A DNA stretch of 64,000 nt from Comamonadaceae bacterium. Its GTDB lineage: Bacteria; Pseudomonadota; Gammaproteobacteria; Burkholderiales; Burkholderiaceae_C. The translations under genes and the position numbers were made by a program. The stretch lies in the NCBI GenBank assembly GCA_027486255.1, contig JAIXPL010000050.1:1-64000 (forward strand), written 5' to 3'. Numbering within the stretch: the first letter of the stretch is position 1; each line of letters begins with the position of its first letter. The notes beneath the pieces are model-generated. The model made no database searches. It was not told the origin of the DNA and was given only the letters and a program-made list of their open reading frames with translations. Positions 59,011 to 62,512 of the stretch are shown in pieces.

Positions 59011-59442
59011 TTACTTGCAGCTGGCCGGCAGGTACTTGGCCTCGATGCCATTGGCGCCCGGGCCGCAAGACCAGGCCAGCTGGCCGTCTGTGCCCAGAGT
59101 GGCCTTGAGCTGCAGGGTCTTGCCGCCAATGCGAGGCTGCTCGGCAGCGGTCACGGTGATGACGCCGACATTGGCGTCTGCGGCATCCCGGGCATAGCCC
59201 ACGCTGGCCACGTACTTGGATTTCTGGGCATCAAGGCCCAGGGTCTCGGGCAACTTGCTGCCCACCTGCACGGATTCCGTGAGCGCGGTCTTGGCCGGGG
59301 TGGCGGCCAGGATGAGCTCGGTGACCTTGGCGCGCACGGTGTAGTCCTGGTACATCGGCAGGCCCAGGGCGGCCAGCAAACCGATGATGGCAATCACGAT
59401 CATCAGCTCGATGAGGGTGAAACCTTTGTGAACGACCGCCAT
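59011..59442 (-). CDS. pilA: Type IV major pilin-like protein
   Basis: A 143-residue type IVa pilin. It has a short leader MAVVHKG and the prepilin cleavage site G|FTLIELMIVIAIIGLLAALGLPMYQDYTVRAK (quoted in parts), with the glutamate at mature position 5. A globular head ends in two cysteines (WSCGPG and PASCK) forming the D-loop disulfide. No pilus assembly genes are adjacent, so it relies on machinery elsewhere. The upstream gene on the same strand is terC; a stem-loop lies directly before the ribosome-binding site. Confidence 0.9.
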   Translation of the reverse strand: MAVVHKGFTLIELMIVIAIIGLLAALGLPMYQDYTVRAKVTELILAATPAKTALTESVQVGSKLPETLGLDAQKSKYVASVGYARDAADANVGVITVTAAEQPRIGGKTLQLKATLGTDGQLAWSCGPGANGIEAKYLPASCK

Positions 59443-59454
59443 GCACGAACTCCC

Positions 59455-59485
59455 AAAAAACAGCCAGCGGCCACCATGCCGCTGG
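59455..59485 (-). terminator. Hairpin and T-run directly before the pilin ribosome-binding site
   Basis: On the minus strand CCAGCGGC-ATGGTG-GCCGCTGG is followed by CTG and six T residues, then GGGAG and the pilin ATG 13 bases on. It may terminate terC transcripts about 110 bases after that stop, or shield the 5' end of the pilin message. Confidence 0.6.
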
Positions 59486-59597: not shown

Positions 59598-60296
59598 TCA
59601 GGTCTCGGAGACGACGCGCTGGCGTTGGTTCAGGTGGCGCCCGACGAACACCACGAAGGCCGCGCCGATGAGGCCGGCGATGGTGACCACCTGGTGGCTC
59701 ATTTCACCCAGGTAGGTGTTGACCGCCGGGTCGGTGAGCAGCATCTCACCGGCCAGAAAGCCCAGCAGGCCCGCACCGATGGTGATGATGAAGGGAAAGC
59801 GCTCCATCACCTTGGTCAAGAGGGTGGCACCGAAGATGATCAGCGGAATGCTCACCAGCAGGCCGATCACCAGCATGGGCAGGTTGCCCTTGGCCGCGGC
59901 CGCCACAGCGAGCACGTTGTCCAGGCTCATCACCAGGTCAGCCACCAGGATGGTGCGGATCGCCGAACCCATGCCATTGATCTCCTTGGCGTCGCCATCA
60001 CCATCGTCCTCGCCGGTGAGCAGATCGATGCCGATGTAGGCCAGCAGGCCCGCGCCGACGATCTTGAGGAAAGGCAGGGTCAGCAGGCGGATGGCCACGA
60101 TGGTCAGCAGGATCCGCATGACGATGGCAGCAGCGCTGCCCCAGAAGATGGCTTTGTTGCGCTGCTCGGGCTGCAGGCTGCGGGCCGCCATGGCGATCAC
60201 CACGGCGTTGTCACCGGAGAGGACCACGTTGGCCAGGAGGATGGAGCCGAAGGCACTCCAGAACAAGGGGGACGTGAGATCGAGGTCGAAGAACAT
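59598..60296 (-). CDS. TerC-family membrane protein
   Basis: A 232-residue polytopic membrane protein of the TerC/Alx family, linked to tellurite resistance and, in E. coli Alx and relatives, to manganese export. The family motif for metal binding is present: NVVLSGDNAVVIAMAAR in the first helix pair, and DLVMSLDNVLAVAAAAKG in the second. An acidic cytosolic loop (TGEDDGDGDAKE) separates the halves. Its leader contains a terminator hairpin and a paired Shine-Dalgarno, so expression is probably controlled after transcription begins. Confidence 0.88.
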   Translation of the reverse strand: MFFDLDLTSPLFWSAFGSILLANVVLSGDNAVVIAMAARSLQPEQRNKAIFWGSAAAIVMRILLTIVAIRLLTLPFLKIVGAGLLAYIGIDLLTGEDDGDGDAKEINGMGSAIRTILVADLVMSLDNVLAVAAAAKGNLPMLVIGLLVSIPLIIFGATLLTKVMERFPFIITIGAGLLGFLAGEMLLTDPAVNTYLGEMSHQVVTIAGLIGAAFVVFVGRHLNQRQRVVSET

Positions 60297-60304
60297 GGCT
60301 GAGC

Positions 60305-60354
60305 ACTCCCATCAGGAACGGAAAAAGCGCCGGAAGGCGCTTTTTCACGGGAGT
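60305..60354 (-). promoter_or_regulatory. Structured terC leader: terminator hairpin inside an SD-sequestering stem
   Basis: On the minus strand an 11-bp perfect stem GAAAAAGCGCC-TTCC-GGCGCTTTTTC (60321-60346) lies 25 bases before the terC ATG. Flanking it, ACTCCC (60349-60354) pairs with GGGAGT (60305-60310), which contains the terC Shine-Dalgarno. The hairpin can also be the sucCD terminator, 82 bases after the sucD stop. Confidence 0.6.
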
Positions 60355-60428
60355 TCAGTGTAGGGACGTGGGGCAGCCGCCCCGTGCGTACTACTGCTTA
60401 CATCAGCCCTCCGGATTGACCCTTGAGC

Positions 60429-61322
<894 letters not shown>

Positions 61323-61351: not shown

Positions 61352-62512
<1,161 letters not shown>

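Follow-up and report, generated by a model that had tools for sequence, protein, structure and literature searches.

The hairpin shortly upstream of terC in the window, i.e. the whole stretch of 64,000 nucleotides analyzed here, is likely the intrinsic terminator of the preceding sucCD operon, situated downstream of terC's own promoter and overlapping the terC 5'UTR. The genes sucC (61352-62512, immediately upstream of sucD), sucD (60429-61322) and terC (59598-60296) are consecutive and all lie on the minus strand, and a gap of 132 bp separates the end of sucD at 60429 from the start of terC at 60296. The sucD gene, encoding the succinate-CoA ligase alpha subunit and marking the end of the sucCD operon, was identified by NF004230 and TIGR01019, both above cut-off. 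The terC product is a membrane protein of 232 aa belonging to the YjbE-type TerC family (PF03741, E=7.6e-46; TIGR03717, 219.8 bits against a cut-off of 134.8). Going from sucD to terC, the gap holds TAAGCAGTAGTACGCA (60400-60385), TACACT (60362-60357), ACTCCC (60354-60349), the hairpin (60346-60321), GGGAGT (60310-60305) and the ATG. From the hexamer onwards the minus strand reads TACACT-GAACTCCCGT-(GAAAAAGCGCC TTCC GGCGCTTTTTC)-CGTTCCTGATGGGAGTGCTCAGCC-ATG, where the part in parentheses is the hairpin. For comparison, terC loci were collected from 151 genomes of the family and from 87 congeners, giving more than 100 sucD-terC gaps. Most of the terC genes close to that of the window are found directly behind sucD. 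Within the same genus, a second type of TerC (MEEFMTA), about 50% identical, occupies the same place behind sucD (L189-L213). It has a conserved upstream sequence of its own (attgcggttagccacaat) as well as its own hairpin (ACCGGTTGTC...GACAATCGGT), and looks like a replacement of terC in situ.

The hairpin consists of 11 bp closed by a 4-nt UUCC loop, with a G+C-rich stem whose upper part is made of G-C pairs, and is followed by the U-tract TTTTTCCG (5 T in 8 nt). The gene-proximal end lies 24 nt from the ATG, as the first-pass annotation had counted. A stable G+C-rich stem-loop with an adjoining U-tract, at the 3' end of a transcription unit, is what characterizes an intrinsic terminator, although a simple terminator scan of the window did not list this hairpin despite its 5 T in 8 nt. 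When the leader RNA was folded, exactly the hairpin nested within an outer stem was obtained, at -57 kcal/mol (z=-2.7; 2 out of 200 shuffles were as stable), and most of this stability is contributed by the hairpin. The hairpin occurs at the same position in all 17 aligned congeneric leaders, and 20 out of 22 genus-level leaders have a U-tract with at least 5 T in 8. Outside the genus the hairpin persists while the U-tract is often degenerate, with fewer than 5 T in 8 in 8 of 24 leaders. Generally, a hairpin is found shortly before the Shine-Dalgarno (SD) sequence in the sucD-terC gaps of relatives, its sequence varying freely, and the conservation of both synteny and hairpin in most of these gaps speaks for a sucCD terminator. 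RNAalifold, applied to MAFFT alignments of the genus set, recovered the hairpin and not the outer stem. The literature searched contained no report of a terminator between sucCD and terC. Another terminator hairpin (CCAGCGGCATGGTGGCCGCTGG, with a T-run) is located at 59442-59485 of the window on the minus strand, and 21 nt separate its end from the ATG of the next gene downstream of terC, which encodes a type IV pilin. Since the pilin gene shares the terminator-before-ATG layout, the sucD-terC geometry is not special.

Upstream of the hairpin, the comparison revealed a promoter-like module that is absent from the first-pass annotation, namely TAAGCAnnAnTACGNA followed after approximately 22-24 nt by TANACT. 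In the window it is represented by the operator-like element TAAGCAGTAGTACGCA (60385-60400, minus strand, centered at about -42) and by TACACT (60357-60362, minus strand), the putative -10 hexamer. TAC[GC]NA was found 22-24 nt upstream of TANACT in 35 of the 46 dereplicated leaders, against 0.5+-0.7 in shuffles, a comparison that is a plausibility check and no blind test, since the motif was defined after inspection of the alignment. A search for the element in 15 genomes gave seven exact matches, all of them at terC, and the combination of element and hexamer occurs once in the window's own genome. The one-mismatch hits that were examined were mostly situated inside reading frames, and none had a -10 at the right spacing. 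In some relatives the element has a dyad character, most clearly in L031, where it forms the near-perfect palindrome TTCGTAGTACTACGAA. There is no evident -35, and the element keeps a fixed distance to the hexamer as in activator-dependent promoters. The simplest reading is that the module is an activator-type promoter with its site centered near -42. TANACT would then be the -10, the element would be bound by the activator, and the predicted start of the terC RNA would be at about 60350, inside ACTCCC.

The earlier claim that terC RNA must contain the hairpin gains support from this module, as no other conserved promoter-like element was seen and this one precedes the hairpin. That terC is read through the hairpin still stands, while the terC-linked element between sucD and the hairpin argues against sucD read-through as the sole origin of the terC transcript. 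An additional promoter in the stretch separating hairpin and ATG, with CATAAC/TATAAC as the -10, was considered and rejected; its start would fall within or beside the SD, and the window lacks the hexamer. Likewise, a comparison by eye with the ACTU motif of CrbR (PMC5715377) gave no match to the element, and membership in the CrbR/ErdR acetate regulon was discarded. Doubled TACGCAGTACTACGCA-like sites occur near other genes in L241 and L244, and are possibly further targets of the same regulator. Another palindrome, resembling TTGACC-NN-GGTCAA, is found upstream of the TAAGCA element in the sucD-terC gaps of the congeners L009, L172, L181, L183 and L185.

Natural rearrangements show that hairpin and promoter are separable. 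In L211, terC has been lost from behind sucD and the hairpin is kept together with its U-tract, the same as in the sister clade, while behind sucD, most of the remaining terC-less genomes under study carry what looks like an ordinary terminator. The promoter element was seen in none of the terC-less genomes examined. The opposite situation is found where terC sits elsewhere: in L245, where it follows another gene than sucD, the element and the -10 are kept and there is no leader hairpin, and in L246, where it follows a transporter-like gene with a terminator of its own, the element is kept and only a decayed hairpin is left. Furthermore, eight congeners have a strong T-run terminator directly after sucD and upstream of the terC promoter, so that terC in these genomes needs its own promoter. 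Both the promoter and the SD are kept, and the leader hairpins of these eight are weaker, with a median of -9.5 against -13.7 kcal/mol (Mann-Whitney p=0.002; p=0.0003 for the z-scores), a comparison that probably represents a single evolutionary event. A hairpin that outlasts terC, that is missing or degraded at terC genes located elsewhere, and that is weaker where sucD has acquired another terminator would serve sucCD and not terC. Comparison of the sequences thereby shows conservation patterns and a separability of the two modules, and these together indicate that termination of sucCD would be what keeps the hairpin, and expression of terC what keeps the promoter element.

Under the explanation we favor, the hairpin would cause termination, and most transcripts from sucCD would stop there. 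Expression of terC would depend on a promoter of its own, consisting of TAAGCAnnAnTACGNA, a spacer of about 22 nt and TANACT; the element, centered at about -42, is placed as for a class II activator. Polymerase would start just before the hairpin and pass it, and the resulting mRNA would carry the hairpin at its 5' end, ahead of the SD. What counts against this explanation is the unusual arrangement of a promoter that sends polymerase directly into a terminator.

The outer stem that surrounds the hairpin in the window was correctly noticed in the first-pass annotation, which described ACTCCC as complementary to the GGGAGT that holds the ribosome-binding site (60354-60349 against 60310-60305). 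The pairing extends to 8 pairs between ACTCCCGT (60347-60354, minus strand) and ATGGGAGT (60305-60312, minus strand), the latter including the SD GGGAG at 60310-60306. Shuffling of the flanks gave chance probabilities between 0.007 (10-nt left flank) and 0.03 (26-nt left flank), before correction for selection by eye. The stem is strong in the window species and its 99% relatives L001 and L151; of about 35 congeneric leaders, almost none has it. In the predicted structures, ACTCCC/GGGAGT is a real, species-level pairing without conservation in the genus. An outermost pairing in the fold, GGCUGA/UCAGCC (60403-60408 with 60297-60302), was dismissed, being broken in the 99%-identical L001 (GGCGGA). 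For the outer stem to form, the RNA has to begin no further downstream than about 60352, and folding of the leader predicts a fully paired SD in read-through RNA and a partly freed one when the RNA starts at 60350. In terms of the sucCD terminator and separate terC promoter, the pairing would damp translation of sucCD read-through RNA. Transcripts made from the terC promoter would probably be hardly affected, as their predicted start is inside ACTCCC.

Such a dependence on the RNA start could also be regulatory. CUCC at the 5' end of the terC RNA would then pair across the hairpin with the SD, making RNAs with CUCC poorly translated while those starting a few nucleotides later are translated. 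In favor of this start-site- or read-through-dependent anti-SD control, in addition to the folding of the window, stems pairing with the SD are present in 14 of the 46 dereplicated leaders, compared to 5.3+-1.9 in shuffles (0 out of 500 shuffles reached 14) and four in an upstream control window. Striking pairs also occur in other genera, i.e. CTCCACT/AGTGGAG in L095, ACTCCA/TGGAGT in L061, GGTTCCA/TGGAGCC in L070 and CTCCAA/TTGGAG in L068. However, when partners were swapped between species, 447 out of 1000 swaps reached 14 pairing leaders, i.e. there is no excess in their number, and on the mean the figure is 29 out of 1000, so that covariation beyond a shared CTCC is weak. The family-wide SD pairing would accordingly be due mostly to CTCC recurring close to the start site. 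The stem is moreover absent in most congeners. For read-through RNAs, the SD is predicted to be only marginally less accessible than in shuffled controls (p=0.04), and the difference from RNA starting at +1 lacks significance (p=0.11). A general sequestration of the SD in read-through RNAs was rejected, this effect being only marginal, and we consider anti-SD control unlikely. In its family-wide form, where a 5'-terminal anti-SD (CUCC at the start site) would close around the terminator hairpin, and the choice of start site or read-through from sucCD would decide TerC translation, the idea appears distinctly improbable. If true, it would tie a metal-handling membrane protein to transcription of a TCA-cycle operon.

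The hairpin might instead be selected for terC itself, either as an attenuator limiting terC or as a 5' stabilizer of the mRNA, as known from the ompA leader, with termination of sucCD as a secondary effect. Many species retain it although their U-tract is poor, and in many other genera (L061-L097) ATTCATAACA, which lies between hairpin and SD and directly precedes the latter, hardly varies, while the adjoining hairpin turns over. Both this sequence and the persistence of the hairpin with a degenerate U-tract outside the genus hint at some role in the terC mRNA. Nevertheless, selection for terC is quite unlikely to be the primary cause in view of the rearrangements, as the hairpin survives the loss of terC (L211), is missing or a decayed remnant at terC copies that are not behind sucD (L245, L246), and weakens when sucD has another terminator though terC and its promoter stay.

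Least of all, the hairpin and outer stem could constitute a new riboregulator through which terC responds to metals or pH, as had been proposed in the first-pass annotation. TerC-family genes are riboswitch-controlled in some bacteria, e.g. meeY/ykoY of Bacillus subtilis by a manganese riboswitch, and alx of Escherichia coli (PMC10550928), and the leader is structured. The annotation had noted the lack of a yybP-ykoY consensus, and the covariance search agrees, as no Rfam family matches the window at gathering scores. At E<=10, the 4227 models gave no RF00080 in 60200-60600, and only chance hits to sRNA terminators and one unrelated family. As a positive control, RF00080 was found above cut-off in 71 of the 151 relatives, elsewhere in their genomes. 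Conservation of the outer stem, set beforehand as a test, fails at the genus level, and no conserved outer stem with compensatory changes emerged from the congeners or the partner-swap test. Nor did the leader structure follow terC to its positions away from sucD in L245 and L246, apart from the decayed hairpin of L246. With an outer stem lacking conservation, a hairpin that tracks sucCD termination rather than terC and whose sequence turns over freely, no conserved aptamer-like sequence or structure, and a predicted leader from +1 that is no longer than about 55 nt and consists largely of one perfect hairpin, a riboregulator of this kind is very improbable. A single overlap between RF00080 and a terC neighborhood was observed, in G143 (G143:C5:43720-43940, L100), where a sub-threshold match of 24.6 bits immediately precedes a terC gene that, in the stretch retrieved, does not follow sucD. 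It is possible that this is a diverged manganese riboswitch.

A tempting riboswitch candidate is thus removed, leaving a simpler and testable arrangement in its place, in which the terC-specific promoter element is the more interesting lead. That all exact matches to the element in the genomes searched lie at terC suggests that this TerC-family gene of Burkholderiales has a regulator of its own, and the element offers a concrete starting point in looking for the signal by which terC is switched on.

Among known systems, the yybP-ykoY riboswitch (RF00080) precedes TerC-family genes in other bacteria and is common in this bacterial family, whereas the terC leader is too short, lacks the consensus and has no match at E<=10. 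The pyrC and pyrD leaders of E. coli are controlled by start-site switching. They resemble the terC leader in having a 5'-terminal pyrimidine stretch able to pair with the SD, in a manner that depends on the exact start (as predicted here). The terC leader differs in having a terminator hairpin between the arms, in showing no link to nucleotides and in its pairing not being conserved in the genus. The promoter is closest to class II activator-dependent sigma-70 promoters, which have a LuxR/FixJ- or CRP-type site near -42; it shares with these an element at about -42, a dyad in some relatives and the absence of an evident -35, and its element differs from the CrbR ACTU motif (PMC5715377). Finally, the hairpin has in common with intrinsic (Rho-independent) terminators at operon ends a G+C-rich stem, a 4-nt loop, a U-tract, the position after sucD and its retention without terC. 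It differs in being located downstream rather than upstream of the promoter of the next gene, and in a 5' A-run that makes it symmetrical.
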